From an uncultured Myxococcales bacterium (GTDB lineage: Bacteria; Myxococcota_A; Polyangia; Polyangiales; Polyangiaceae), in contig CALFNG010000163.1 in the NCBI GenBank assembly GCA_937902985.1, forward strand, positions 1 to 36,677: DNA of 36,677 nt, in the 5' to 3' direction. Each line of letters opens with the position of its first letter. Position 1 is the first letter of the stretch. The notes beneath the pieces were generated by a model. The model was not told the DNA's origin. It ran no database searches and saw only the letters and a list, made by a program, of their open reading frames with translations. Below, in pieces: positions 6,638 through 26,548 of this stretch. Position numbers and translations under genes: made by a program.

Positions 6638-8101
6638 ATGCGACCGCGCGAAGACGAGCTCACGGGCACGCAAAAGCACGCGTTCCTCAACGCGGGACGC
6701 CCACATGTCGTTGCAATGTGGCCAGGAGGCACCATCGCGAAGGAGCTCCCGGAGGGCGCTCGACTCACGGTCGGCCGGTCTCGGACGTGCGATCTCACGA
6801 TCGATCACGGATCCGTCTCCCGTGAACACGTGGCCTTCCACGACGGGCGGCCGGTCGAGGTCGAGGATCTCGGGAGCACCAACGGCACGACCGTCGGCGG
6901 CGTGCGGATCCCGAAAGACACGCGGGTCCCCGTCGAGCGCGGGCAGGTCGTCATCGTCGGAGCTGCGGTCCTCGTCGTGCACGGTGCATTCGAACCGGCA
7001 GTGAGCCCGCCGACGCCTCGCCGCGCGTCACCGGCTTCGCGACCCGACGAACCGCCGATCATCATCGCCGACGACGCGATGCGCGAGCTTCACCGCATCG
7101 TCGATCTGGTCGCGAAGGGCGACCTCTCCGTCGTGCTCCTGGGCGAGACAGGCACCGGGAAAGACGTGCTGGCCGACGCTCTCCATCGCCGCTCGGCCCG
7201 GATCGGAGCGGCCTACGTGCGCCTCAACTGCGCCGCGTTGCCCGATGCGTTGCTCGAGAGCGAGCTCTTTGGCTACGAGCGGGGGGCGTTCACAGGCGCA
7301 GTCCAGGCCAAGCCGGGCCTGCTCGAAATCGCAGACGGCGGCAGCATGTTTCTCGACGAGGTCGCCGAGCTTCCGCTGACCGTTCAGGCCAAGCTGTTGC
7401 GAGTCCTCGAGAACGGGGAGATCACGCGAGTCGGTGGGCTCCGTTCTCGGCGCGTCGACGTGAGGATCATCTGCGCGACCAACCGCGATCTGTCGGCCGC
7501 GGTGCGCACCGGTGTATTCCGGCAGGATCTCTTCTTCCGCCTCAACGGCATCACACTCACGATCCCTCCGCTCCGGTCGCGGCGGAGCGAGATTGCCCCG
7601 CTAGCGCGGGAGTTCGTCCGCGAGATCTGTCGCCACGCCGGCAGGCCGACGCTTCCCATCAGCGACGAAGCCTTCGCTTTCCTCGAGAGTCAGAGTTGGC
7701 CAGGAAACGTTCGGGAGCTCCGGAACGCGATCGAGCGAGCGGTCACGCTCTGCACCGACGACAGCATCGAACTCCGGCATCTGGCGTCGATCGACGGCGG
7801 GTTCGCTCATCAACTCGCGCTCGTCGACGACCGCGCGACCACTCCATTACTCTCCGTACCCCCGTCGCTCCCTACGCTCCCTGACGGAGGGCCACCCGCC
7901 GACGTGGGTCTCCAGGAAGACGCGAGGCGCGCCGCGCGAGCTCTCGAACGCCGGCGCATCGCCGAAGCGATGGACCGCTGCGGTGGCAACCAGACCCGCG
8001 CTGCTCAGCTTCTCCAAATTTCCCGCCGAACGCTCGTCGCTCGGCTCACAGAATACGGCTTCGCGAGGCCGCTCAAGGATCGACGGTCGGGCTCGGAGTG
8101 A
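6638..8101 (+). CDS. FHA-domain sigma-54-dependent activator, paralogue 1
   Basis: A 487-residue bacterial enhancer-binding protein. Residues ~43-90 form an FHA phosphothreonine-binding domain (VGRSRTCDL, SVSREH, DLGSTNGT). The AAA+ domain follows at ~145-375: Walker A GETGTGKD (169-176), the sigma-54 contact loop GAFTGA (216-221), Walker B MFLDE (237-241) and the RQDLFFRLN arginine-finger region. The C-terminus is a Fis-type helix-turn-helix (NQTRAAQLLQISRRTLVARL). The FHA domain suggests control by a Ser/Thr kinase, as known for several myxobacterial activators. It aligns without gaps to the protein at 25097-26548 for over 200 residues, including the shared start (M-R/L-PRED). I see no convincing sigma-54 site upstream of this copy. 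Target genes are inferred from context. Confidence 0.94.
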   Translation: MRPREDELTGTQKHAFLNAGRPHVVAMWPGGTIAKELPEGARLTVGRSRTCDLTIDHGSVSREHVAFHDGRPVEVEDLGSTNGTTVGGVRIPKDTRVPVERGQVVIVGAAVLVVHGAFEPAVSPPTPRRASPASRPDEPPIIIADDAMRELHRIVDLVAKGDLSVVLLGETGTGKDVLADALHRRSARIGAAYVRLNCAALPDALLESELFGYERGAFTGAVQAKPGLLEIADGGSMFLDEVAELPLTVQAKLLRVLENGEITRVGGLRSRRVDVRIICATNRDLSAAVRTGVFRQDLFFRLNGITLTIPPLRSRRSEIAPLAREFVREICRHAGRPTLPISDEAFAFLESQSWPGNVRELRNAIERAVTLCTDDSIELRHLASIDGGFAHQLALVDDRATTPLLSVPPSLPTLPDGGPPADVGLQEDARRAARALERRRIAEAMDRCGGNQTRAAQLLQISRRTLVARLTEYGFARPLKDRRSGSE

Positions 8102-10518: not shown

Positions 10519-12156
10519 ATGATGCCTGCAAATACCCTCGAGAACGGCGCGGTCGATGGGTACGTGGGAAGGAACGTCGAGCTCGACGTGGCCGCCGACT
10601 TCTCCGCGAATGCGCTGGTCGCCGCCGCCGCCCGGTGCCGCGAGGCGGTTCACATCTTCCGGAGCGAGCCGACCGGTCGAATCGGTGTGTCTTTTGGCGA
10701 TCGCGTCGACGCACTGGCCAACGACTACTCCCACGTCGCGTCGCTTCCCGGTGTCTATCCGGAGTGGCTCGGTTCCTCGGAGTTCCTCGAGACTCACGGG
10801 GTCCGGTTTCCGTACACGAGTGGCGCGATGGCGCACGGTATCGCGAGCCCTCGCCTGGTGCTCGCGATGGCGCGGTCGGAGCTCCTGGCATTCTACGGCT
10901 CGGCCGGCGTCGCTCCCTCGGACGTCGAGGCGAACATCCTCGCCATCCAGAGCGAGCTCGCGAATACGGGTGCGAGCTGGGGCTCCGACCTGATTCACAC
11001 GCCGCACGACCCGACCATCGAGGACACCCTCGTCGATCTCTACCTCCGCCATCAGGTCCGTCGCGTGTCGGCGTCGGCGTTCATGCGACTGACGCCCGCG
11101 GTCGTCCGTTACGCATGCACCGGGTTGTCGCTGGCGCCCGACGGGACCATCCGGCGAGCCAACCACCTCTTCGCCAAGCTCTCGCGAGCCGAGACGGCTC
11201 GGCTCTTCATGGCGCCGGCACCCGCGGAGATCGTGAGCGCGCTCGTGCAGCGAGGCCTCCTTTCCGAGCGCGAGGCGACCCTCGCGGCCCACGTGCCCCT
11301 CGCGGGAGACATTACCGTCGAAGCGGATTCCGGAGGTCACACCGACAACCGGCCACTCACGGCGTTGCTCCCCGCGCTCTTCGAGCTGCGGGCCGAGCTC
11401 CAGGCGACCCATCGCTTCGCGCGCGCCATTCGAATCGGCGCCGCGGGGGGCATCGGTACGCCGGGCGGCGTGGCCGCGGCGTTCGGACTTGGCGCCGCCT
11501 ACGTGATGACGGGCTCGACCAACCAGGCGAGCGTCGAGGCGGGAACGTCTGAACTCGCCAAGGAGATGCTTGCGGCCGCCGAGCTGACCGACGTGGCCAT
11601 GGCGCCGTCGCCGGACATGTTCGAGATGGGCGTAAAGGTGCAGGTCCTCAAGCGAGGGACGATGTTCGCGGGGCGCGCGTCGCTCTTGCGGGAGCTGTAT
11701 CGCGCACACGCCAGCCTCGAAGACATCCCGGCCGAGACGGTCGCCCGCATCGAGCGCGAGATCTTTCAGCGCCCGCTGGCCGACGTCTGGGCAGAGACGC
11801 GCGGGTTCTTCGCCGGGCGCGACGCTCGCGAGGTCGAGCGCGCGGAACGCGACCCGAAGCACAAGATGGCGCTCGTCTTCCGCTGGTACATCGGGCTCGC
11901 GAGCCACTGGGCCATCCAGGGCGTTCCGGGCCGCAAGACGGATTTTCAAATCTGGTGCGGCCCGGCGATGGGGGCCTTCAATCGGTGGGCAAAGGGCTCG
12001 TTCCTGGCAGACCTGCCAAACCGGTCCGTAGTTCAGATCGCTCTGAACCTGCTCGAGGGCGCGGCGGTGATCACACGCGCTCAGCAGTTTCGGAGCATCG
12101 GGCTCCCGGTACCCGACGCCGCCTTCGCCTACGCGCCGAAACCACTCGCGTGTTAG
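10519..12156 (+). CDS. pfaD: PfaD-type enoyl reductase of a PUFA/secondary-lipid synthase
   Basis: A 545-residue FMN-dependent TIM-barrel protein of the PfaD family, the trans-acting enoyl reductase of polyunsaturated fatty acid synthases. Diagnostic stretches are EADSGGHTDNRPL (about residues 268-280, His274), RIGAAGGIGTPGGVAAAFGLGA (FMN phosphate region), MTGSTNQASVEAGTS, and the C-terminal helical part with RDPKHKMALVFRWYIGLASHWA and DFQIWCGPAMGAFN. The length is normal for the family. It is the first gene of the synthase operon, as pfa1 is in myxobacterial pfa clusters, and a good -24/-12 promoter match lies ~110 bp upstream. The start is ATG at 10519; a second ATG follows at 10522. It should reduce the enoyl thioester carried by the single ACP of the next gene. 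Confidence 0.93.
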   Translation: MMPANTLENGAVDGYVGRNVELDVAADFSANALVAAAARCREAVHIFRSEPTGRIGVSFGDRVDALANDYSHVASLPGVYPEWLGSSEFLETHGVRFPYTSGAMAHGIASPRLVLAMARSELLAFYGSAGVAPSDVEANILAIQSELANTGASWGSDLIHTPHDPTIEDTLVDLYLRHQVRRVSASAFMRLTPAVVRYACTGLSLAPDGTIRRANHLFAKLSRAETARLFMAPAPAEIVSALVQRGLLSEREATLAAHVPLAGDITVEADSGGHTDNRPLTALLPALFELRAELQATHRFARAIRIGAAGGIGTPGGVAAAFGLGAAYVMTGSTNQASVEAGTSELAKEMLAAAELTDVAMAPSPDMFEMGVKVQVLKRGTMFAGRASLLRELYRAHASLEDIPAETVARIEREIFQRPLADVWAETRGFFAGRDAREVERAERDPKHKMALVFRWYIGLASHWAIQGVPGRKTDFQIWCGPAMGAFNRWAKGSFLADLPNRSVVQIALNLLEGAAVITRAQQFRSIGLPVPDAAFAYAPKPLAC

Positions 12157-12256: not shown

Positions 12257-15200
12257 ATGAGCGTCCGAAGTCAGGCAGATGGGATCGCGATCGTCGGGAT
12301 GGGCGCGCTCTTTCCCGGCGCGCTCAATCCGGCCGACTTCTGGCGCAACCTCTTGAGCGCACGTCAGCTGATTCGCGACGTGCCAGAAGGGTACTGGCTC
12401 GCCGAGGACTTTTACGACCCGAATCCGCGCGTACCCGACAAGGTCTACGTGAAGCGCGGCGCCTTCCTCGATCCGGTCGACTTCGATCCGATGAAGTACG
12501 GCGTCCCGCCGAAGCTCTTGACGAGCACCGACACCTGCCAGCTCCTCTCGCTCATGGTCGCCGACCAGGTGCTGCGCGACAGCTTCGGCGGCCGCTTCGA
12601 TCACGTCAGCCGCGAACGCGTCGGTTGTGTGCTCGGCGTCTGCTCCGGGCTCGAGCTCGTCGGCGAGATGGCGGGCCGGCTCCAGCGGCCTGCCTTCGTG
12701 AAGACGCTCCGCGAGCACGGCCTGCCAGAAGACGAGGTGCAAGCAATCTCCGAAGCCATCGTCGACCTGGGGCCCGAGTGGAACGAGAGCACCTTCCCCG
12801 GGCTCTTGAACAACGTCGTTACCGGCCGCATCACCAACCACTTCGATCTCGGCGGCCCGAACTTCACGACCGACGCGGCATGCGCGAGCTCGCTCGCCTC
12901 GGTGGCGATGGCGTCGTACATGCTTCGTCAGGGCGACGCCGATCTCGTCATCGCCGGCGGCGCCGACACGACGAACGACCCGTTCACGTTCATGTGCTTC
13001 TCGAAGACGCCGGCGCTCTCGATGAGCAGCACCTGCCGTCCATTTTCAGAGAGTTCGGACGGCACGATGCTCGGCGAGGGCATCGGGATGCTCATGCTGA
13101 AGCGCCTCTCCGACGCGGAGCGCGACGGCGATCGCATCTACGCCGTCATCCGTGGCATCGGCAGCTCCTCCGACGGTCGCGCCAAGAGCATCTATGCGCC
13201 CCGCTGGGAGGGCCAGGTGAAGGCGCTCCGCCGCTGCTACGAGGAGGCCGGCTACGGGCCGGACACGATCGATCTGACCGAGGCGCATGGCACCGGCACC
13301 AAGGCGGGGGACCTCGCCGAGTTCAAGGCGCTGACCGAGGTGTTCGCCGCCACCGGGCGCGAAGACAAGCAGTGGTGCGCGCTCGGCTCGATCAAGTCGC
13401 AAATGGGCCACACGAAGGCCGCCGCCGGAGCCGCCGGGCTCATGAAGGCGGTCCTCGCTCTGCACGACAAGGTGCTGCCGCCCACGTTCGGCATCGACAA
13501 GCCCGCCACCAAGCTCGAGATCGAGAAGACGCCCTTTTACTTGAACACGACGCCCCGGCCGTGGATTCGCGAAGGGGACCATCCCCGGCGCGCAGCGGTG
13601 AGCTCGTTCGGGTTCGGGGGGACGAACTTCCACCTCACGCTCGAGGAGTACACGGGCAAGCGCGAAAAGGCGCTTCGCCTCCGTGCGTTGCCGACGGAGC
13701 TGGTGCTCTTCTCGGGGGACGACCGAGCGGCGATTGCGAAGGCCGCGCGCGAGCTCGCCGCCGTACCTCCCCGCGCTGGAGTCATCGCGCACATCGCGCG
13801 AGAGTCGCAGCAGCGTTTCAGCGCGTCGGCGAAGGCCCGACTCGCGGTCATTGCTGCTGATGCCGACGAGCTGAAGACGCGTCTCGAGCAAGCGATCAAG
13901 GCGCTCGACGAGCTCGATGCGAAGAAGGCCACGACGTTCACGGTCCCCGGTTCGATCGTCTACTCGGAGCAGGTCGCTGACGGCGGGCTCGCCTTCGTGT
14001 TCTCGGGCCAGGGTAGCCAATACGTCTCGATGGGCTCAGACGTCGCGCTGACCTTCGACGACTCCCGCGCGGTGTGGGACGAAGAAGCCGCAGCCAAGGT
14101 CGGCGACGTGCCGCTCCATCACGTCGTCTTCCCGAAGCCGGTCTTCACCGACGAGGACCGCGACGCCGCCGAGAAACGCCTCCGCGCGACCGAATGGGCG
14201 CAGCCTGCGATCGGCGCGGTGAGCGCCTCGCTCCTCGCGCTTCTCGAGACCGCCGGGGTGAAGCCCGACTGTGTTGCGGGTCACAGCTTCGGCGAAGTGT
14301 CCGCGCTCTATGCGGCCGGGGTCCTCGACCGTCGGAGCTTCCTCCGCGTGGCCCGGCTACGCGGAGCGCTGATGGCCGCGGCCACCGGCAGTGGAACGGG
14401 GGCCGATGGCGGCGGCATGTCGGCTGTCGCGGCGCCGCTCGACAAGGTCGAGTCGATCCTGAAAGAGGCTGCGTCAGGCGCGGTCGTCGCCAACCACAAC
14501 GACCCGAAGCAGGTCGTGATCTCGGGACCGATCACGGCCATCGAAGAGGCCGAGAAGCGCTTCGCGGAGGCGGGTATCAAGGTTCAGCGACTGCCGGTTG
14601 CGGCGGCGTTTCACTCGTCGATCGTCGCCGGTTCGGTCGGACCGTTCGCCAAGGCGCTCGACGGGATCGCGTTCCAGTCGCCGGCGTTCCCGGTCTTCGC
14701 CAATGCAACGGCCGAGGCATACCCGTCGACCCCCGAAGCCGCGCGCGATCTGCTCTCGTCCTCGATCGCCATGCGCGTGCGCTTCGTCGACGTGGTGGAA
14801 GCGATGTATGCGCGCGGCGTCCGGACTTTCGTCGAAGTGGGGCCCGGCTCCGTTCTCACCTCGATGATCGGGCGCATCTGCGGAGACCGACCGCACCGCG
14901 CCGTGCCGCTCGATCGTGTGGGTCGACACGGCGTGACGAGCCTCTGGCAAAGCCTGGCACAAGTCGCCGTTGCGGGTCACGCCGTTGACTTCTCGGCGCT
15001 CTGGCGCGAGTTCGACCTCGGGCCGGATCCGAGGGCAGAACCCAAACCCAAGATGACGGTTCGCATCAGCGGCACCAACTACGGCAAGAAGTACCCGCCC
15101 GAAGGGGGAGCGGCGGGGTTGCCTCGCCCCAATCCGCCGCGAGCGCAGGTCGCAAAGCGAGCCAACGGAGTCAACGGAGAAGTCATGGAACACAAGTCGT

Positions 15201-16129
15201 CTGCCGCCCCCGAGACCGCGATGCCCCGAGCCCCGGCTGCGAAGGCCGCCGCCCCCTGGCCGTACGAGAACGGCAACGGCGTCGCAACCAACGGCAGCGC
15301 GAGGGCGCCGCATCGCGAAGCGCTCGCGGAGTCGCCCACGAACGGAACCTCCGTGGTCTCGCGCACCCAGGCAGGGGCCTGGCGCGGCGGCGAGGCCAGT
15401 CACTGGCTGAGCGCTTACGAAGCGATCCAGTGCCGGACGGCCGAGGCGCACGCGGTCTACCAGCAGACCATGGCGCAATGCCACCTCGCGTTCCTCCGTA
15501 CAGCCGAGCAATCGGCGCTGGCGCTCGCGTCGCTGGCCATGGGCGCGCCCTCGGCAGCCATCCCGGCGCTGTCGGCCTCGCGTGGAATGGCCCTGCCGCC
15601 GGCGCACGACCCGCACGATTCGTTCGCGATGCCGACGCAGGCCATTCAATGGTCGGCGCCCGCCCAGACGCACGCCCCCGCTCTCGCGAAGGCGCCGGCG
15701 CCCAAACCGGCCCCGACCCCCGTCCCCGTATCGGACGCGGGGCTCGTCGCTCCGCCGGCGCCCGCGATCCGCGCACCCGGCCCTGCTTCCCACCCGGCGC
15801 CGGTCGCGCCGGTGCCGACCACTCCTCCGAGGACCGCGGCGCCAATGGGCATGCCGGCCGATGGCGACGTGAAGACGTTCCTCTTCAACGTCATCGCCGA
15901 GAAGACCGGCTACCCCGTCGAGATCTTGAACCTCGACCAGCAACTGGAGGCCGATCTCGGGATCGACTCGATCAAGCGCGTCGAGATCCTCTCGGCCTTC
16001 GAGGGTCAGATCCCGGATATCAAGGACGTGAACCTCGAAGAGGTCGCGAGCCTCAGCACGCTGCGCGACGTCGTCGGCTTCATGGAGAAGTTCTCCGACA
16101 AGCTCGGCCTCGCAAAAAAAAAAGAGTAG
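12257..16129 (+). CDS. KS-AT-ACP subunit of an iterative PUFA/glycolipid-type synthase
   Basis: A 1290-residue type I synthase subunit. The ketosynthase (~8-460) has Cys209 (TTDAACASS), His344 (EAHGTGTK) and His385 (QMGHTKAAAG). The acyltransferase (~575-890) has Ser677 (GHSFGE) and His786 (AAFHSS), a malonyl-CoA pattern. After a ~250-residue Ala/Pro-rich linker, with a helical AEAHAVYQQT stretch, comes one ACP at ~1205-1280 with the phosphopantetheine Ser1238 (LGIDSIKRVEIL). PUFA synthases usually carry several tandem ACPs; here there is only one. AAAGG precedes the ATG. The frame closes at 16127-16129, immediately after a ten-A run; the ketoreductase-dehydratase continues in the -1 frame. 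With a frameshift the product would be ~2090 residues, KS-AT-ACP-KR-DH. Confidence 0.93.
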   Translation: MSVRSQADGIAIVGMGALFPGALNPADFWRNLLSARQLIRDVPEGYWLAEDFYDPNPRVPDKVYVKRGAFLDPVDFDPMKYGVPPKLLTSTDTCQLLSLMVADQVLRDSFGGRFDHVSRERVGCVLGVCSGLELVGEMAGRLQRPAFVKTLREHGLPEDEVQAISEAIVDLGPEWNESTFPGLLNNVVTGRITNHFDLGGPNFTTDAACASSLASVAMASYMLRQGDADLVIAGGADTTNDPFTFMCFSKTPALSMSSTCRPFSESSDGTMLGEGIGMLMLKRLSDAERDGDRIYAVIRGIGSSSDGRAKSIYAPRWEGQVKALRRCYEEAGYGPDTIDLTEAHGTGTKAGDLAEFKALTEVFAATGREDKQWCALGSIKSQMGHTKAAAGAAGLMKAVLALHDKVLPPTFGIDKPATKLEIEKTPFYLNTTPRPWIREGDHPRRAAVSSFGFGGTNFHLTLEEYTGKREKALRLRALPTELVLFSGDDRAAIAKAARELAAVPPRAGVIAHIARESQQRFSASAKARLAVIAADADELKTRLEQAIKALDELDAKKATTFTVPGSIVYSEQVADGGLAFVFSGQGSQYVSMGSDVALTFDDSRAVWDEEAAAKVGDVPLHHVVFPKPVFTDEDRDAAEKRLRATEWAQPAIGAVSASLLALLETAGVKPDCVAGHSFGEVSALYAAGVLDRRSFLRVARLRGALMAAATGSGTGADGGGMSAVAAPLDKVESILKEAASGAVVANHNDPKQVVISGPITAIEEAEKRFAEAGIKVQRLPVAAAFHSSIVAGSVGPFAKALDGIAFQSPAFPVFANATAEAYPSTPEAARDLLSSSIAMRVRFVDVVEAMYARGVRTFVEVGPGSVLTSMIGRICGDRPHRAVPLDRVGRHGVTSLWQSLAQVAVAGHAVDFSALWREFDLGPDPRAEPKPKMTVRISGTNYGKKYPPEGGAAGLPRPNPPRAQVAKRANGVNGEVMEHKSSAAPETAMPRAPAAKAAAPWPYENGNGVATNGSARAPHREALAESPTNGTSVVSRTQAGAWRGGEASHWLSAYEAIQCRTAEAHAVYQQTMAQCHLAFLRTAEQSALALASLAMGAPSAAIPALSASRGMALPPAHDPHDSFAMPTQAIQWSAPAQTHAPALAKAPAPKPAPTPVPVSDAGLVAPPAPAIRAPGPASHPAPVAPVPTTPPRTAAPMGMPADGDVKTFLFNVIAEKTGYPVEILNLDQQLEADLGIDSIKRVEILSAFEGQIPDIKDVNLEEVASLSTLRDVVGFMEKFSDKLGLAKKKE
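16114..16123 (+). other. Ten-A slippery run: candidate programmed frameshift or transcriptional slippage site
   Basis: Ten consecutive A (read as GCA AAA AAA AAA GAG TAG) directly precede the stop of the KS-AT-ACP frame. A -1 shift, one added A or two lost A would join the frame to the downstream KR-DH coding region. Runs of nine or more A are established slippage sites for bacterial RNA polymerase, and A AAA AAA is a classic -1 ribosomal heptamer. Lysine elsewhere in the window is nearly always AAG, so this run looks deliberate. A homopolymer sequencing error is the main alternative. Confidence 0.6.
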
Positions 16130-18528
16130 CGGCGCCGCAGACTGAGACGACTGCGAGTGCCACGGAAGACACGTCGCCGCCTGCGGGCATCACGCGGTTC
16201 TCGCCTGTCCTCGAAGTCTCGCCGGCGCCGGGCTTCGCGCTCCCTGGGTTGCTCGCCGGCGGGCGTGTTGAGGTCGTCGACAACGCGGGCGACGCCAGCG
16301 GGGTCGGCGCGCGGATCGCGGCGCGACTGCAGGCGCTCGGAGTCGACGCTCACGCGGTCACGCTCGCGACCAGCGAGGCCTCGGGAATCCTCTTCGCGAA
16401 GGGCATTCTCGCCAGTGATGCGTCGCAAGACGACGGCATCGCGGTTCAACGTGCCGCGCTCGCAGCCGCGAGGACTTTCGCGCGACGCGAACGGCGAGAC
16501 TCCGAGCACCGCTTCTTCGTGACCCTGCAGGACACGGGCGGCGACTTCGCCGCGTCGGGCCGCGCGGGCGAACGCGCCTGGGGCGGAGGGCTACCGGGCC
16601 TGGTCAAGACGGCCGCCGCCGAGTGGCCCGACGCCGCGGTGAAGGCCATCGACGTCGCCACAGCCGGCGCGTCTCCCGACGCAGTCGCCGAGCGCGTCGT
16701 CGCCGAGCTTCTCCTTGGGGGCCGCGACGTCGAGGTGGCCCTCGGCGCCGACGGTGGGCGCGCGACGTATCGGCACCGCCCAGTCGCCTATCGGCCGGTC
16801 CCTGCGCGCATCCGACGCGGCGCCGTCCTCATCGTGTCGGGCGGCGCTCGCGGGGTCACGGCCTCGTCGCTCGCACCCCTTTGCAAGTACGGCCCGAAGC
16901 TCGCGCTCCTCGGTCGCACCGCCCTCGTCGACGAGGCGCCCGAGACGCGCGACGCGAGTACGGACGCTGAGCTCCGACGCGCGCTCCTGGCCCGCGCGAC
17001 CGCCGCGGGATTGCCACCGAATCCGAAGGAGCTGGCGCGCGCCGCCAAGCTGATCCTCGATTGCCGCGAGATTCGCGGAAACATCGCCGCGCTCGGACGC
17101 GCGGGTGCGGAGGTGAGCTACTACCCGATCGACGTGCGCAGCGCGGGGGCCGTGCGCGAGTGCGTCGACGCGATCCGGCACGCCTGGGGCCCAATCCACG
17201 GCGTCATCCACGGAGCTGGGGTCCTCGCCGATGCGTTGCTCGCCAACCAGACCGACGAGCAGTTCGACCACGTCTTCGGCACCAAGGTCGACGGGCTGCG
17301 GCACTTGCTCTCGGCTACGGCAACCGATCCTCTCGAGCTCCTGCTCGTCTTCTCGTCGGTGGCGGGCCGCTTCGGCAACGCCGCGCAGTCCATCTACGCG
17401 ATGGCCAACGAGGTGCTCAGCGTGGTCGCGGCCAACGAGCGCGCCCGCCGAGTCGACTGCCTCGTCCGCTCGCTCGCCTGGGGTCCGTGGGACGGAGGAA
17501 TGGTCACCCCCGGGCTCGCGAAGCTCTTCGAGAAGGCCGGAGCGAAGCTCATCGCGCTCGACGTCGGGGCCGAGGCGCTGGCCCGCGAGGTGGCGAGCGA
17601 CGATGGCGCTTCGCAGGTCGTGTTGATGAACGGCGAGCCGCCGCTCACGGGACGCCCCGTTCACGGGGGGCGTACGTTCAACGGGGAAGAGCGCTTCGAC
17701 GTCCTCGTCAACGCCGCGACGTTCCCTCAGCTGACGGGCCATCGCATCACGCCAGGCGGCGTCCCTGTCGTACCCGTGGCCTTCGTGGTCGAGTGGTTCT
17801 TCCGGGCGGCGCAGTCGTGCTTTCCCTCGCTCGTCGCTCGCGGCGCCCGCGACGTGAAAGTCCTCCGGGGCGTGCCGGTCGAAGACTTCGACGGGCGCGG
17901 CGTGCGCCTCATCGTGCACGCTCGCGTGCTCGAGACTACGGCGCCGGCGACGACGCTCGAGGTGAAGCTCTTCGACGAACACGACAAGCCCCGCTACATA
18001 GCGACGGTCGAGATGGGCGCGTCTCACGCGCAGCTTGCCCCGCCGGTCGCGTCCGACGACGCACCGGGAAGCGGAGAGGGCGCGACCTGGTCGATCGAGC
18101 AGGTGTACTCGGAGGTCCTCTTTCACCGACCTCCGTTCGCGGGCCTCCGCTCGCTCGATCCGGTCTACGACGAGCGCGCGAGCGGCGAGCTCGCCGGCCT
18201 CCGCGCGGCGGCATGGCCCGACGCGCAGTGGTCGTTCGATCCTGCGATCATCGACGGCGGGCTTCAGCTCGCCTGCGTCTGGGGCCGTCACGTGCTCGGC
18301 GGCGTTCCCCTGCCGACGAGCGTCGGCGCCTTCGAGCTGTATCGAACGGGGCCCGTCGACGAGCCCGTGCGCTGCGTCTTGAAGGGACGACGCGCAGGGC
18401 AGCGCCGCGTCCTGGTCGACCTCGCTTACGTTGCCGAGAGTGGGCACCTGATCGCTTACCTTCGAGATCTCGAGATGCATTTGCCGCTCGTCGTCGACGG
18501 CAGCATCAAATCGAATGGAGCCGCGTAG
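16123..18528 (+). CDS. KR-DH region of the synthase, reached by -1 frameshift
   Basis: About 801 codons in the -1 frame relative to the KS-AT-ACP gene. A structural half-ketoreductase comes first (RFSPVLEVSP onward). The catalytic ketoreductase follows, with VSGGARGVT for NADPH and FSSVAGRFGNAAQSIYAMAN holding the Ser/Tyr. Last is a complete polyketide-type double-hotdog dehydratase, with its His at base 17740 (GHRITPGGVPVVPVAF) and its Asp at 18253 (FDPAIIDGGLQL). No ATG or GTG occurs in this frame before the catalytic ketoreductase. The only early candidate is a TTG at 16249, which has no ribosome site and would delete the first strand of the domain. Expression therefore most likely needs frameshifting at the A-run. 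The coordinates begin at the first codon after a -1 slip. The stop is eight bases from the next start, whose AGGA site overlaps it. Confidence 0.85.
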   Translation, partial: RVAAPQTETTASATEDTSPPAGITRFSPVLEVSPAPGFALPGLLAGGRVEVVDNAGDASGVGARIAARLQALGVDAHAVTLATSEASGILFAKGILASDASQDDGIAVQRAALAAARTFARRERRDSEHRFFVTLQDTGGDFAASGRAGERAWGGGLPGLVKTAAAEWPDAAVKAIDVATAGASPDAVAERVVAELLLGGRDVEVALGADGGRATYRHRPVAYRPVPARIRRGAVLIVSGGARGVTASSLAPLCKYGPKLALLGRTALVDEAPETRDASTDAELRRALLARATAAGLPPNPKELARAAKLILDCREIRGNIAALGRAGAEVSYYPIDVRSAGAVRECVDAIRHAWGPIHGVIHGAGVLADALLANQTDEQFDHVFGTKVDGLRHLLSATATDPLELLLVFSSVAGRFGNAAQSIYAMANEVLSVVAANERARRVDCLVRSLAWGPWDGGMVTPGLAKLFEKAGAKLIALDVGAEALAREVASDDGASQVVLMNGEPPLTGRPVHGGRTFNGEERFDVLVNAATFPQLTGHRITPGGVPVVPVAFVVEWFFRAAQSCFPSLVARGARDVKVLRGVPVEDFDGRGVRLIVHARVLETTAPATTLEVKLFDEHDKPRYIATVEMGASHAQLAPPVASDDAPGSGEGATWSIEQVYSEVLFHRPPFAGLRSLDPVYDERASGELAGLRAAAWPDAQWSFDPAIIDGGLQLACVWGRHVLGGVPLPTSVGAFELYRTGPVDEPVRCVLKGRRAGQRRVLVDLAYVAESGHLIAYLRDLEMHLPLVVDGSIKSNGAA

Positions 18529-18536
18529 GACCCGCC

Positions 18537-21500
18537 ATGCAGAAGCGACTCGGTGACTCAAGAACGGACACGACGGTCGAGATCGAACGGATGCCTCGCG
18601 CGCCGGCGCGACCCGAAGCGATCCCACCGAGGCGCTCGACGCCCCCTTCGACCGCGGGCGTGGTCCCGGCGGGACACCCCGTCTTCGCTCATCATGAGCG
18701 CGTGTCGGCGGCGCACACCGAGTTCCTTCGAACTCAAGAACGGGTGCACCTCGAGTTCCTCGCCCACCGCAAGCGCCTCCTCGAGTGGCTCGATGAGGCA
18801 GGCCGGCATGTGGAACCAGTCGCGTTCGAGCAAGGGCCGCTCCCTACGTGGTCCGTGCCGGCGCCCATCGCCGCGACCGAAGCGAGACCGCCGCTCCCTA
18901 TGCCCGCCGCCGCCGTCGTCCCGCCCCCTTCTCCGACTGGCGAGCGACGTACCCTTGCAATCACGTGGGACGATGCGCTCCTCGACTCCCACGTAGCTCC
19001 CCTTGCGCTCGTCTTTTCTGCCCTGTCGGGGATCGTCTCCGAGAGCGCGAACGGCATCGCCGAGGGCCACTTCGGCGTACTCGATTGCGAGCTCCGCGGC
19101 CTCGGTACCCTCGCAGGGTCGGGCGACACGATCGTCACCGATCTCGTTGCGCCGCCTCGCGTGACAGGCCCCGCGCAGACGCCGTTCCGCCTCGTCGCGC
19201 AGGTCGTTCGAACGGGACATGGCGAACAGCCGCTGGTCGAGGTTCACGGCGTTCGCTCGACGGATGCGCTCTCGGCACAAGCGCCTCCGCGGGGGCCCGC
19301 CGCGGGCGCGCCTGTAGCCAACCACGTCCCGCGCACATGGACGGCGAAGCGTAAGCTCACGGAGCGCGAGGTCGCGGCCCTCTACGAGGGCGAAATCCTC
19401 TCGACCTTCGGCGCCGGCTTCGAGCGCGCCGGCAGCCACACGCGCACGCCGCCCCTCCCGGGCGGCTCGGTCGTTCGGCTCACCGGCGTGAGTGGCATCG
19501 ATGCCACGGGCGGCCCGTGGTCGATGGGCTCGCTCAGCGCCAGGGCCGCCCCCCGCGTCGGAGATCCTCTCGTCCCCAACGACCCCGGCCTTCGCCTCGG
19601 CCGCGTGTTCCAAGGTGCCCAGCAGGTGCTCGCGCTCTTCGTCATGGCGGCCGGCGGAACGATCGCGCGCGACGGATGGCGCTTCGAGGCGACCGTCGAT
19701 CACGCGAGCCATCTGCGGTTCTTCGGCGCACCGCCGCCCGACGCGCCGCTCGACTACGAGCTGGTCGTCGAGACGCTCGAAGGCGGCCCTTGGTCGAAGA
19801 TCGTGGGCGACGTCAAAGCCTGGGCAAACGGACAGCTCGTGATGAATGCCGAGCGGGTGGCGCTCCAGCTCGTCCCCGATTTTCCGCTGACGAGCAATCG
19901 GGGCCTCTACGCCGACGGGCAGGCGGACCACGTGTCGGGCCGGCCCGCGGCGGACATCGACGGCTTTCGCCTCGACTACGCGTCGTTGGTGGCGGGCGCC
20001 GTGGGCCGACCGACCGATGCGTTCAACCAGGCGGGCGCGTTCTTCGAGACCGGCGAGCGGCAGATGCCGCGGTTGCCCGGGCCGCCCTACCACTTCGTCA
20101 CGCGGGTCACCCACGTCGCCGGGGAACGCCTCTCGATGCGGCCCGGGGCCGAGGCGACGATGGAGTACGACGTCCCGGTCGACGCCTGGTATTTCGACGA
20201 AAACGGCAACCGGTCGATGCCGTGGTGCGTCCTCCTCGAGGCGGCGCTGCAGCCGTGCGGATGGCTCTCGGTCTACGTGGGGTGCCCCATCGTCGCGAGC
20301 GAGAACGTGTTCTTCCGTAACCTCGACGGTGCTGGCAAGATGACCGGCGAGGTCTTCGGCGGCAGCACGGTACGAACGCACACCAAGGTCACGTCGGTCT
20401 CGAGCCTGTCCGGGATCATCCTGATCTCCTACAAGATCGAGTGCCACGTCGGAGACCGCGAGGTCTGCAACCTCACGGCGGCCTTCGGGTACTTCCCGAA
20501 TTTCGCGCTCGACGCACAGGGCGGGCTGCCGACGAAGCCCGAGCAGCGGACTCGCCTCCTGGTCGAGTCCCCCTTGCGCTTCGATCTGTCGGAGCGGCCC
20601 GAAAAATACTGCGCTGGTCCGTTGCGCCTGCCCGGCCCGATGTTGCTCATGATCGACCAGGTCACCGGTTTCTGGCCCGACGAGGGCCCCATCGGAAAGG
20701 GACGTCTCCGGGTCGAGAAGGCCGTGAAGCCGCGGGAGTGGTACTTCAAGTCGCACTTCTACAGCGACCCGGTGCAGCCCGGCTCTCTCGGCATCGAGCA
20801 GATGCTCCAGGCGCTCCAGTTCTACGTGATCGAGGAGAACCTCGCGGCGGGGATCGAGAAGCCCTACTTCGAGCCGCTCGCCCTCGACAGCCACGTCTCG
20901 TGGAAATTCCGCGGCCAGGTGCGGCCCGAGAACAAGCACATCGTCTCCGAGGTCGACATCGTCTCCATCGAGTCGACTCCCGAGGGCGTGACCGTGCTCG
21001 CCAACGGGTCGCTCTGGGTCGACGGAGTGCGCTGCTACGAGGCCAAGGCCATCGGCGTACGCGTCCGCGGCCATCGCGAGGTGCTCGCGCTGCCCCCGCG
21101 CGTGATCGACAGCGTGCTCGATCCGGCGGTCGATGCCTGGGTGACCGATCACCGTCCGAGTTACACGGTGCCGGTGATGCCCATGATGAGCATGGTCGAT
21201 CGCCTCGCCTCGGCGGCGCTCGAGCACGTTCGTGCGTCGTACCCACGCATCGACGGCGCGCCCGAGTGGGTCGTCGTCGCGGGCAACGACCTACGAGCCC
21301 TCGGGTGGCTCATCTGCGATCGACCGAAGAACCTGCGCACGGAGGTGCGTACCGTCCTCGCTCGTGCCGTGCATCGCACGGAGGAGGTCGACGTCCTCGC
21401 CTCCCTCTACGACCTGGGCGACGGCGGAGCAGCACCCAAACGCGTCGCCTCGGGCCGAATTCGCATCGCGCGGGCGTTCGCCAGGCCTCCCGCGGCCTGG

Positions 21501-22298
21501 CCGCCGCTCGAAGATGGAGTCGCTGCGCCGAACCCGTACACGTCGGGATCGATCTTCTGGGGACCGAAGCTCCAGGTGCTCAGGCGGCTCGCCCTGAGCG
21601 GGCGCGGCGCGTCGGCCGACCTCGACGCGGCCGGCGCCGACGCGCCCGTCGGCGCCATCCATCACATCTTGCTCGACGGCGCCCTCCACGGCGTGCCTCA
21701 CGACGAGCTCGAACGTTGGTCCGACAAGATCTCGCCGGGACACATGGGGGTGCCCGTGCGCTTGACCGCGCAGTTCTTCGGGCCGCCGCCCACCGCGGGG
21801 ACCGTTCGCGCGGAGGTTCGCTTCGCCGGTTTCGATGGCGCCAACGCCTTCCCGATGTACCTGATCCAGATGATCGGACCCGACGGACGCGTGTGGGCGA
21901 CGCTCCGCCACGTCGAGATGTTGATCCCGTTCGGACATCGGGCGCTCTCGAAGGCGGACCGCATCCCCTTCCTCGTCGAGCGACGCTACCAGGCCAAGAC
22001 CGGCCTCTCCGAGTTCCACGAGGGCAGGACCACTCTGCGCGCGGCTGACGTGAAGCGTATGGACGGCCTCCCAGGCAGCGTGGCTCACGTCTACGGTCTG
22101 GAGCGCGACGCACCCATCGACAACCGGGTCATCGCGATCAAAGACCATGTGGGCCAGCTGGCCAAAGCGCATCCCGGGAACGTCCATGTCACCCCTGCGC
22201 TCACGGAAGCGTGGAGCGACGCCGAGCCGGCGAAGCGCTATCCGGTCGTGGTCGAGTTGCACGGCGCGGATGTCGTGATCCGCGACGTCTCGCGATAA
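18537..22298 (+). CDS. PfaC-like multi-hotdog dehydratase subunit lacking KS-CLF
   Basis: A 1253-residue protein matching the dehydratase part of PfaC/Pfa3. Residues ~45-90 form a charged helix (HERVSAAHTEFLRTQERVHL). Then come three FabA-like hotdog regions: a degenerate one (~280-440), one with WYFDENGNRSMPWCVLLEAALQ (~560-585), and one with HFYSDPVQPGSLGIEQMLQ (His740, Glu754, spaced as the catalytic pair in FabA/FabZ). The C-terminus is a second double-hotdog dehydratase with His872 (DHRPSYTVPVMP) and Asp1047 (LLDGALHG). Only the third FabA-like unit and the C-terminal one keep their catalytic residues. Canonical Pfa3/PfaC proteins begin with KS-CLF, and myxobacterial Pfa3 ends in an acyltransferase; both are absent here. 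The ATG at 18537 follows AGGA in the previous stop region. Confidence 0.88.
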   Translation: MQKRLGDSRTDTTVEIERMPRAPARPEAIPPRRSTPPSTAGVVPAGHPVFAHHERVSAAHTEFLRTQERVHLEFLAHRKRLLEWLDEAGRHVEPVAFEQGPLPTWSVPAPIAATEARPPLPMPAAAVVPPPSPTGERRTLAITWDDALLDSHVAPLALVFSALSGIVSESANGIAEGHFGVLDCELRGLGTLAGSGDTIVTDLVAPPRVTGPAQTPFRLVAQVVRTGHGEQPLVEVHGVRSTDALSAQAPPRGPAAGAPVANHVPRTWTAKRKLTEREVAALYEGEILSTFGAGFERAGSHTRTPPLPGGSVVRLTGVSGIDATGGPWSMGSLSARAAPRVGDPLVPNDPGLRLGRVFQGAQQVLALFVMAAGGTIARDGWRFEATVDHASHLRFFGAPPPDAPLDYELVVETLEGGPWSKIVGDVKAWANGQLVMNAERVALQLVPDFPLTSNRGLYADGQADHVSGRPAADIDGFRLDYASLVAGAVGRPTDAFNQAGAFFETGERQMPRLPGPPYHFVTRVTHVAGERLSMRPGAEATMEYDVPVDAWYFDENGNRSMPWCVLLEAALQPCGWLSVYVGCPIVASENVFFRNLDGAGKMTGEVFGGSTVRTHTKVTSVSSLSGIILISYKIECHVGDREVCNLTAAFGYFPNFALDAQGGLPTKPEQRTRLLVESPLRFDLSERPEKYCAGPLRLPGPMLLMIDQVTGFWPDEGPIGKGRLRVEKAVKPREWYFKSHFYSDPVQPGSLGIEQMLQALQFYVIEENLAAGIEKPYFEPLALDSHVSWKFRGQVRPENKHIVSEVDIVSIESTPEGVTVLANGSLWVDGVRCYEAKAIGVRVRGHREVLALPPRVIDSVLDPAVDAWVTDHRPSYTVPVMPMMSMVDRLASAALEHVRASYPRIDGAPEWVVVAGNDLRALGWLICDRPKNLRTEVRTVLARAVHRTEEVDVLASLYDLGDGGAAPKRVASGRIRIARAFARPPAAWPPLEDGVAAPNPYTSGSIFWGPKLQVLRRLALSGRGASADLDAAGADAPVGAIHHILLDGALHGVPHDELERWSDKISPGHMGVPVRLTAQFFGPPPTAGTVRAEVRFAGFDGANAFPMYLIQMIGPDGRVWATLRHVEMLIPFGHRALSKADRIPFLVERRYQAKTGLSEFHEGRTTLRAADVKRMDGLPGSVAHVYGLERDAPIDNRVIAIKDHVGQLAKAHPGNVHVTPALTEAWSDAEPAKRYPVVVELHGADVVIRDVSR

Positions 22299-24988: not shown

Positions 24989-25010
24989 TACCGTCTGTAT
25001 GTGGTAAGGC
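24989..25010. promoter_or_regulatory. Partial copy of the TetR operator sequence
   Basis: TACCGTCTG and GGTAAGGC, separated by TATGT, repeat the bases at 69-84 (TACCGTCT-GGTAAGGC) except for the insertion, which moves the half-sites apart. It lies upstream of activator 2. It may be a decayed or variant operator, or coincidence. Confidence 0.3.
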
Positions 25011-25034
25011 CGGAAGGGACCATCTCGAGCAACT

Positions 25035-25050
25035 TGGCGCGCGAATCGCT
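25035..25050 (+). promoter_or_regulatory. Candidate sigma-54 promoter of FHA activator 2
   Basis: TGGCGCG-CGAA-TCGCT matches 10 of 12 consensus positions with GG (25036-25037) and GC (25048-25049) twelve bases apart. Transcription would begin near 25061, 36 nt before the ATG at 25097. It implies positive autoregulation by a sigma-54 activator. Confidence 0.55.
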
Positions 25051-25096
25051 TATGGCTCCAATTGCCCGCAGACCCGCGGTTGCCGAAAGCCTTCCG

Positions 25097-26548
25097 ATGC
25101 TACCGCGTGAAGACGATATCACCGGAACAGAGACCCACGCCCGCGTCGCGCTCGCTCGCCCCCACCTGGTGGCCATGTGGCCCGGCGGGTCGGCGGTCAA
25201 AGAGATGCCCGCGGCGGGAACCCTGTCGATCGGTCGGTCGCGAAAATGTGACCTGTGCATCGATCACCCGTCGGTTTCTCGTGAGCACGCGATCTTCTAC
25301 GGGAGTAACCCGGTGACGGTCGAAGACCTCGGGAGCACCAACGGCACGACAATCGCCGGCACGCGAATCCCGAACCGCACCCGCGCGGCCATCCAGCGAG
25401 GCCAGGTCGTCGCCATCGGCGCGGCCGTCATCGTGGTCCGCGCCGCCCTCGAAAACGACGCTCCGCCCGTTCCGCAACCGCGCGCGACATTGCGGGCGAA
25501 CCACCAGGCGCCGCCGGTCATCGTGGTCGATGACGGGATGCGCGAGCTCTATCGCGTGGTCGATCTGGTCGGGAAGGGTGACCTGTCGGTCATCCTCCTC
25601 GGCGAGACTGGGGCCGGGAAGGACGTCATCGCCGACGCGATCCATCGCAGGTCGACGCGCGGCTCGGCCGCGTACGTTCGAGTCAACTGTGCCGCCCTGC
25701 CAGACGCCCTGCTCGAGAGCGAGCTTTTCGGCTACGAGCGCGGCGCCTTCACCGGCGCGGTCCAGGCGAAGCCCGGGCTCCTCGAAGTGGCTGACGGCGG
25801 CACGCTCTTCCTCGACGAGATCGCCGAGCTACCCCTGGCGATGCAGGCCAAACTCCTGCGCGTCCTCGAGAGTCGCGAGGTTACGCGTGTCGGTGGCCTC
25901 AAGTCGCGCTCGATCGAGGTGCGCTTCGTCTGCGCCACCAACCGCGACCTCGTTGCACTCGTCCGGTCGGGCGCGTTCCGGCAGGATCTGTACTTCCGGC
26001 TCAACGGCATCAGCCTCGTCATCCCGCCGCTCCGGCAGCGACGCGCTGAGATCGCTCCCCTCGCGCAGGCCTTCGTGATCCAGGCATGCCGCGACGCCGC
26101 CCGGCCCGAGGTCCCCATCACGGCCGAGGCGATGCGCCAGCTCGAGGCTCACGATTGGCCCGGCAACGTGCGCGAGCTGAGGAACGTGATCGAGCGCGCC
26201 GTGACGCTCTGTACGGGCACGGCGATCGACATTCACCATCTGCCGCCACCGGAGCTCAACTTCGGGGTGACCGGGTCGTTCGAGACGGCGCAGCGTGCGA
26301 CCATGCCCTCGCCCAACAACGGCAGCCTGGGCGCCTTCGACGCGGCGCCGCTCGGGCTCCATGACGCCGCGCGACGCGCCGCGCAATCCATCGAGCGCAG
26401 ACGCATCGCCGAGGCCATGGACCGCTGCGGGGGCAACCAGACTCGTGCCGCTCAGTTGCTGCGTATCTCACGGCGCACGCTGGTCGCGAGGTTGACGGAC
26501 TACGGGTTCGCGCGCCCGTTGAAGAAGCGCGCCCCCGAAGCCGACTGA
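25097..26548 (+). CDS. FHA-domain sigma-54-dependent activator, paralogue 2
   Basis: A 483-residue enhancer-binding protein built like the one at 6638-8101. It has an FHA domain at ~43-90 (IGRSRKCDL, SVSREH, DLGSTNGT), an AAA+ domain with Walker A GETGAGKD (169-176), GAFTGA (216-221) and LFLDE, and a Fis-type helix-turn-helix (NQTRAAQLLRISRRTLVARL). The recognition region is identical to paralogue 1 apart from single changes, so both should bind the same DNA site. The ATG at 25097 (MLPREDD) was chosen because it aligns with the paralogue's start. A GTG at 25001 and an ATG at 25052 are in frame but lie before or within ten bases of the predicted transcription start. A candidate sigma-54 promoter precedes it. 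The stop is 12 bp from the convergent rmlD stop. Confidence 0.93.
   Translation: MLPREDDITGTETHARVALARPHLVAMWPGGSAVKEMPAAGTLSIGRSRKCDLCIDHPSVSREHAIFYGSNPVTVEDLGSTNGTTIAGTRIPNRTRAAIQRGQVVAIGAAVIVVRAALENDAPPVPQPRATLRANHQAPPVIVVDDGMRELYRVVDLVGKGDLSVILLGETGAGKDVIADAIHRRSTRGSAAYVRVNCAALPDALLESELFGYERGAFTGAVQAKPGLLEVADGGTLFLDEIAELPLAMQAKLLRVLESREVTRVGGLKSRSIEVRFVCATNRDLVALVRSGAFRQDLYFRLNGISLVIPPLRQRRAEIAPLAQAFVIQACRDAARPEVPITAEAMRQLEAHDWPGNVRELRNVIERAVTLCTGTAIDIHHLPPPELNFGVTGSFETAQRATMPSPNNGSLGAFDAAPLGLHDAARRAAQSIERRRIAEAMDRCGGNQTRAAQLLRISRRTLVARLTDYGFARPLKKRAPEAD

Follow-up and report, generated by a model that had tools for sequence, protein, structure and literature searches.

A probable programmed slip site at the ACP/KR junction of a Myxococcales pfaA-type gene, with counterparts in relatives from several phyla

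The split gene and its A10 tract

The 36,677-nt stretch of DNA analyzed here (the window) carries a gene cluster in which a synthase gene is divided between two reading frames at a run of ten A residues. The features are the following.

10519-12156, forward strand: pfaD (enoyl reductase; TIGR02814, 607 bits), directly upstream of the split gene and in the same cluster
12257-16129, forward strand: KS-AT-ACP product of the 0 frame, 1,290 amino acids, C terminus ...GLAKKKE-stop
16114-16123, forward strand: A10, the putative slip site; 0 frame GCA AAA AAA AAA GAG TAG, with A_AAA_AAA in phase
16127-16129, forward strand: TAG stop of the KS-AT-ACP frame, one codon past the slip site
16123-18528, forward strand: about 801 codons of the -1 frame that encode KR-DH, lacking a nearby start codon of their own
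18537-22298, forward strand: third cluster gene, a FabA-like dehydratase protein without a detected KS/CLF

In a profile search, KS, AT, and PP-binding domains were found before A10 and KR and PS-DH domains after it, which gives the order KS, AT, ACP, KR, DH expected of PfaA, albeit across two frames and with one ACP only. Both halves are PfaA-like by TIGR02813 (scored apart, 994.2 bits for KS-AT-ACP and 256.6 bits for KR-DH; the NCBIfam cutoff is 1010.1, and the joined protein was not scored), and the pfaD neighbor at 10519-12156 is likewise what a pfaA gene should have. The split gene is a pfaA-type subunit, i.e., of a polyunsaturated fatty acid (PUFA)/secondary-lipid synthase. Canonical pfaC, unlike the third gene of this cluster, has a KS/chain-length factor; neither domain was detected in 18537-22298, and the site of the cluster's KS/CLF was not found. 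Two FHA-domain sigma-54 activators (6638-8101 and 25001-26548) lie one on each side of the cluster.

The initial annotation had proposed that KS-AT-ACP stops right after the A run and that KR-DH continues in the -1 frame, and both points hold: the -1 frame is open to 18528, and its translated KR looks intact, S-Y-N residues included. If the frame slipped by -1, or if the mRNA gained a single A, the product would run on through KKKRVAAPQ into KR-DH. At the level of sequence, this anatomy is demonstrated. No second A10 exists in the 8.3-Mb genome, which has in addition four A9 and 34 A8 runs (both strands counted), and the window has no further A run of at least nine (0.01 expected from dinucleotide shuffles). 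The three consecutive AAA codons are, as previously remarked, atypical, because Lys is encoded before A10 by 48 AAG and only 4 AAA codons. As a separate observation, the same GAAAAAAAAG run opens three contigs of the window's genome (G000:C43, C296, and C418; positions 4-13), probably as a shared repeat at assembly breaks.

How might KR-DH be translated? The first start codon in its frame past A10 is TTG 16249, which lies 125 nt in and has a weak Shine-Dalgarno (SD) match (-2.5), in keeping with the earlier view that it is the sole early option and a poor one. The accompanying claim that no ATG or GTG precedes the KR needs rewording: such codons exist, the nearest in frame being 468 nt upstream, where the DNA codes for KS-AT-ACP and offers no SD, and what survives is that no usable start is present. 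The site has what is expected for -1 ribosomal frameshifting, namely, an in-phase X_XXY_YYZ heptamer (A_AAA_AAA) and a long -1 open reading frame, and also what is expected for transcriptional slippage, namely, an A/T run of at least nine at which slippage restores the frame. An SD-like stimulator and a downstream stem-loop are common in -1 programmed ribosomal frameshifting but are not obligatory. The window has no SD-like element upstream of the slip site (percentile 0.82 versus same-locus controls) and no notable downstream hairpin (z, -0.35).

The ACP/KR junction in relatives

KR-DH homologues were drawn from the window's own relatives, GTDB contigs, Paenibacillaceae, Acidimicrobiia, the order of Actinomadura, the phylum of Pelagicoccus, a Bradymonadales-like order, and plasmids; the plasmid search added the Persicobacter loci. 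Each locus was called split or fused by comparing the frame of the last ACP with that of the KR, and heptamers played no part in the selection. Short KR-DH open frames at first resembled many splits; most proved to be contig ends in the ACP array. Among about 180 junctions compared, the frames agree in 156 (fused) and disagree in 23, two of which were left out (L097, with an N gap, and L133, with a break inside the ACP and no heptamer). Among the 21 remaining splits, a -1 shift would restore the frame in 20, the window among them, and a shift in the opposite direction in one (L074). The 20 genomes represent at least five phyla (Myxococcota, Actinomycetota, Bacillota, Verrucomicrobiota, and Bacteroidota, with Bradymonadales listed apart by NCBI), and the break falls exactly between the last ACP and the KR. 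By Pfam, the split halves are KS-AT(-ACP) and KR(-DH); in L129, PP-binding gives no hit at the cutoff, yet an ACP motif is present. For two cultured split species, Paenibacillus curdlanolyticus YK9 and Actinomadura barringtoniae, the predicted short forms have about 1,350 and 1,160 residues, and the long forms would be larger by about 780 residues.

All 20 of the -1 splits have an in-phase X_XXY_YYZ heptamer 6 to 27 nt (at most nine codons) before the stop of the ACP frame; those beginning with A read A_AAA_AAG, A_AAA_AAA, or A_AAA_AAC. The forms are distributed as follows.

A10: the window
A_AAA_AAG: five Paenibacillaceae (Cohnella included), L215/L216
A9 or A6 forms: L085, L090
C_CCA_AAA: L049/L056
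G_GGA_AAA: L070
G_GGA_AAG: L087, L198, L196
G_GGA_AAC: L208
C_CCT_TTG: L108/L129
C_CCT_TTA: L170

Slip sites thus demonstrably recur at this junction. The density of such heptamers in fused junctions is 0.0047 per codon, or about 4 to 5% per ten codons, and the enrichment in splits is not circular, since splits were chosen by frame alone. Related slip sites are not independent; by arithmetic, a chance origin of the split heptamers would be negligible even with about ten independent lineages. Parsimony on the KR-DH tree gives 16 changes between slip and no slip, and because the tree is weakly supported, we claim only repeated gains and losses. Conservation of the window's exact site cannot be judged, because the gene is missing from both same-genus genomes and the nearest KR-DH shares only about 44 to 46% identity with the window's.

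Three further irregularities were seen in these loci. In addition to its A_AAA_AAG site, Cohnella faecalis (L083/L176-L177) shows another frame break, within KR-DH; L168 (G314:C703) and L169 (G037:C40), from the window's order, are pfaA-like copies with one in-frame TGA each near the end of the KR-DH match; and in-frame C11 (L018, about 389 nt upstream of the KR match) and C9 (L091, about 428 nt upstream) tracts in the ACP region are possible further slip or contingency tracts.

Most relatives carry the upstream signal that the window lacks, and several carry the downstream one. Anti-SD pairing 4 to 20 nt before the heptamer has a mean percentile of 0.11 at 28 sites versus same-locus controls (KS p = 7e-13), and most sites have GGAGG, GGGAG, or AAGGAG about 8 to 14 nt upstream. 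Hairpins beginning 5 to 7 nt downstream occur in L108, L129, L102, L195, L196, L215, and L090; taken together, the sites surpass controls (p = 0.0045), with strong hairpins at 6 of 28 sites versus 3 of 277. Nearly all these heptamer types shift at more than 0.1% in Escherichia coli (PMC4066793).

Fused relatives do not have a raised total density of in-phase heptamers at the junction (51, versus 47 and 36 in the other phases). What some of them do have is a mirror layout, in which the gene is fused, the heptamer sits at the same position, and slipping by -1 leads to a stop one codon later. This layout occurs with CTG GGA AAR in L086, L096, L102, L103, L200, L202, and L204 (Bradymonadales and relatives) and with CCG GGA AAG in Persicobacter JZB09 (L195), while the close relatives L087, L198, and Persicobacter psychrovividus L196 have the same heptamer in the opposite, split layout. 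A heptamer followed by a -1 stop within two codons was found at fused junctions 17 times in phase 0 and 0 and 2 times in the other phases, and the phase-0 arrangement is 3 to 4 times as frequent there as elsewhere in the gene. The same heptamer serves both layouts; therefore, it is the pair of products that appears to be kept, not the direction. As far as can be read from sequence comparison, the mirror layout strengthens the inference of two products.

Is KR-DH used where it is split off? For KR-DH of the Paenibacillaceae splits, dN/dS is about 0.11 to 0.16 (dN, 0.08 to 0.15; dS, 0.6 to 1.3), and for the Acidimicrobiales splits, it is 0.15; in L049/L056, pN/pS is 0.56, and the divergence is too great to judge. 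Substitution rates thus indicate that purifying selection demonstrably acts on KR-DH in split relatives where this is testable. Almost no split has a good start codon close to the break, the clearest exception being L087. In the Acidimicrobiales L129 (6757-8295) and L108, the downstream frame ends after the KR (about 513 amino acids in L129), and a TGA is read through in G322; the DH in L108/L129 may be lost or reached via a second recoding event.

Proposed slippage at A10 and the competing explanations

The A runs form a class of their own among these junctions. Runs of at least ten A residues number seven in 839 kb of these genes, and six of the seven lie in the junction, which makes up 4.9% of the sequence. 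At all seven junction runs of at least nine A residues, two frames stop within seven codons and one continues for more than 740. The direction of the shift is not conserved among homologues, as would be expected of transcriptional slippage: it is -1 in the window and L085 and +1 in L074 (A10), and L089, L104, L107, and L122 are in frame. Variable direction has been tied to transcriptional realignment, A9 to A11 runs gave 40 to 63% in magnesium chelatase cassettes (PMC3711429), and selection against slippage becomes visible in many genomes once runs reach nine (PMC1088944). Based on the variable direction and the nine-run threshold, the window probably belongs to this transcriptional class, and because the window lacks an SD and a hairpin, RNA polymerase slippage is the most likely mode of action of its A10, with a -1 ribosomal slip on A_AAA_AAA as an alternative or an addition; the level at which the site acts is unproven.

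In this model, most expression would yield the short KS-AT-ACP, terminated at TAG 16127. In some events, RNA polymerase would add one A (or the ribosome would slip -1 on A_AAA_AAA), and KR-DH would be appended to give a protein of about 2,090 residues. Many relatives would make the same two products via a translational signal in which a heptamer is combined with an SD-like element and, at some sites, a hairpin. What would thereby be set, as for tau and gamma, is the number of ACP-bearing condensing subunits relative to those bearing KR-DH, perhaps in KS heterodimers. Production of both proteins and the setting of a subunit ratio are inferred, with no expression data. We nonetheless hold with considerable confidence that A10 acts as a programmed slip site through which a pfaA-type gene gives two products, with the caveats that expression is unproven and that the run length is unverified in a metagenome-like assembly.

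That last caveat leads to the rival that deserves the most attention, which is that the true run is 8 or 11 A residues and the gene is simply fused. A homopolymer within a 563-contig assembly invites such an assembly or base-calling error, and most relatives are plainly fused; however, the genome's only A10 sits exactly at the relatives' slip position, the four in-frame relatives named above also carry A10 or A11 at the junction, and cultured isolates (Paenibacillus, Actinomadura, and Persicobacter) also have genes split at short heptamers. Even an in-frame A11 would be a slip site giving the short form, because in-frame relatives carry A10/A11 here. We regard an error as unlikely. Phase variation, in which the length of the DNA tract differs between cells and switches KR-DH on or off, has only a slim chance of being correct: replication slippage is expected at a mononucleotide tract such as A10, but homologues have nonhomopolymer heptamers in that position, accompanied by SDs and hairpins, and these do not constitute DNA contingency loci.

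It is harder still to credit that a recent indel has left KR-DH dead in this genome. A close relative with the same tract was not found, and the absence of an SD or hairpin would fit such a loss, yet some 800 KR-DH codons remain open, the KR motif residues are intact, and it would have taken a coincidence for the indel to fall on a recurrent slip position. We give equally little credence to two separate proteins, with KR-DH made by internal or coupled initiation. This reading can point to TTG 16249, to L087, where a GTG overlaps the stop and has a strong SD, and to published split pfaA1/pfaA2 genes (PMC3098273), but the window's TTG has only a weak SD match and sits 125 nt into the frame, a start close to the break is lacking in most splits, and coupling does not need X_XXY_YYZ heptamers. 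The initial annotation had stated that slippage would be refuted if relatives showed one continuous frame with no A run or had a separate KR-DH gene with its own start. Neither is met in simple form, given the 156 fused junctions on one side and the 20 genomes with the same -1 break and an in-phase heptamer on the other; the latter, with the clustering of A10 or longer runs at the junction, support slippage.

Known systems and implications

The nearest precedent is dnaX, which yields tau and gamma by a -1 ribosomal frameshift in E. coli and by transcriptional slippage at A9 in Thermus and A10 elsewhere (PMC3711429, PMC1088944). As in dnaX, one gene would give two products with a common N terminus, and both layouts occur (PMC3711429, PMC1088944), with A_AAA_AAG plus an SD and hairpin in some species and A9/A10 in others. 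The SD-like element and hairpin of the pfaA relatives, both absent from the window, are also found in E. coli dnaX. Unlike dnaX, the gene encodes a fatty acid/polyketide megasynthase, and the switch would add or omit the KR-DH catalytic domains. The -1 magnesium chelatase cluster, whose A-run frameshifts were tested in E. coli cassettes, is likewise a metabolic gene split by A runs of varying length and fused in other taxa (PMC3711429); it differs in the enzyme, and the pfaA genes have more varied heptamer types and a mirror layout too. The "split pfaA" Types D and H also carry KS-AT-ACP and KR on two open reading frames (PMC3098273), although these were described as separate genes, with no frameshift proposed (PMC3098273, PMC13291983); Type D/H junction sequences were not compared here. 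We found no published frameshift in pfaA, a polyketide synthase, or a ketoreductase, with supplementary tables and most subscription journals outside the search. The main text of one survey (PMC3711429), where a polyketide cyclase is a translational-coupling entry, and the accessible portion of a 2016 review (PMC5009743) name no ketoacyl/polyketide synthase frameshift.

Thus far, we think it likely that pfaA-type megasynthases of many phyla have a recurrent programmed slip between ACP and KR, ribosomal or transcriptional, in which either form may be the shifted one and a fixed mixture results, and that this is the first such control known in a fatty acid/polyketide megasynthase. ACP number or dosage sets or limits PUFA synthase productivity (PMC5067506). 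If the proposal is true, genes annotated as broken or as two genes would encode a two-form synthase, which suggests that unequal numbers of ACP-bearing condensing and KR-DH subunits may matter in PUFA/secondary-lipid synthases. For engineering of these pathways, the site would then be a tuning element supplied by nature; it would also be, as in dnaX, a case of transcriptional and ribosomal slippage replacing one another at one site.
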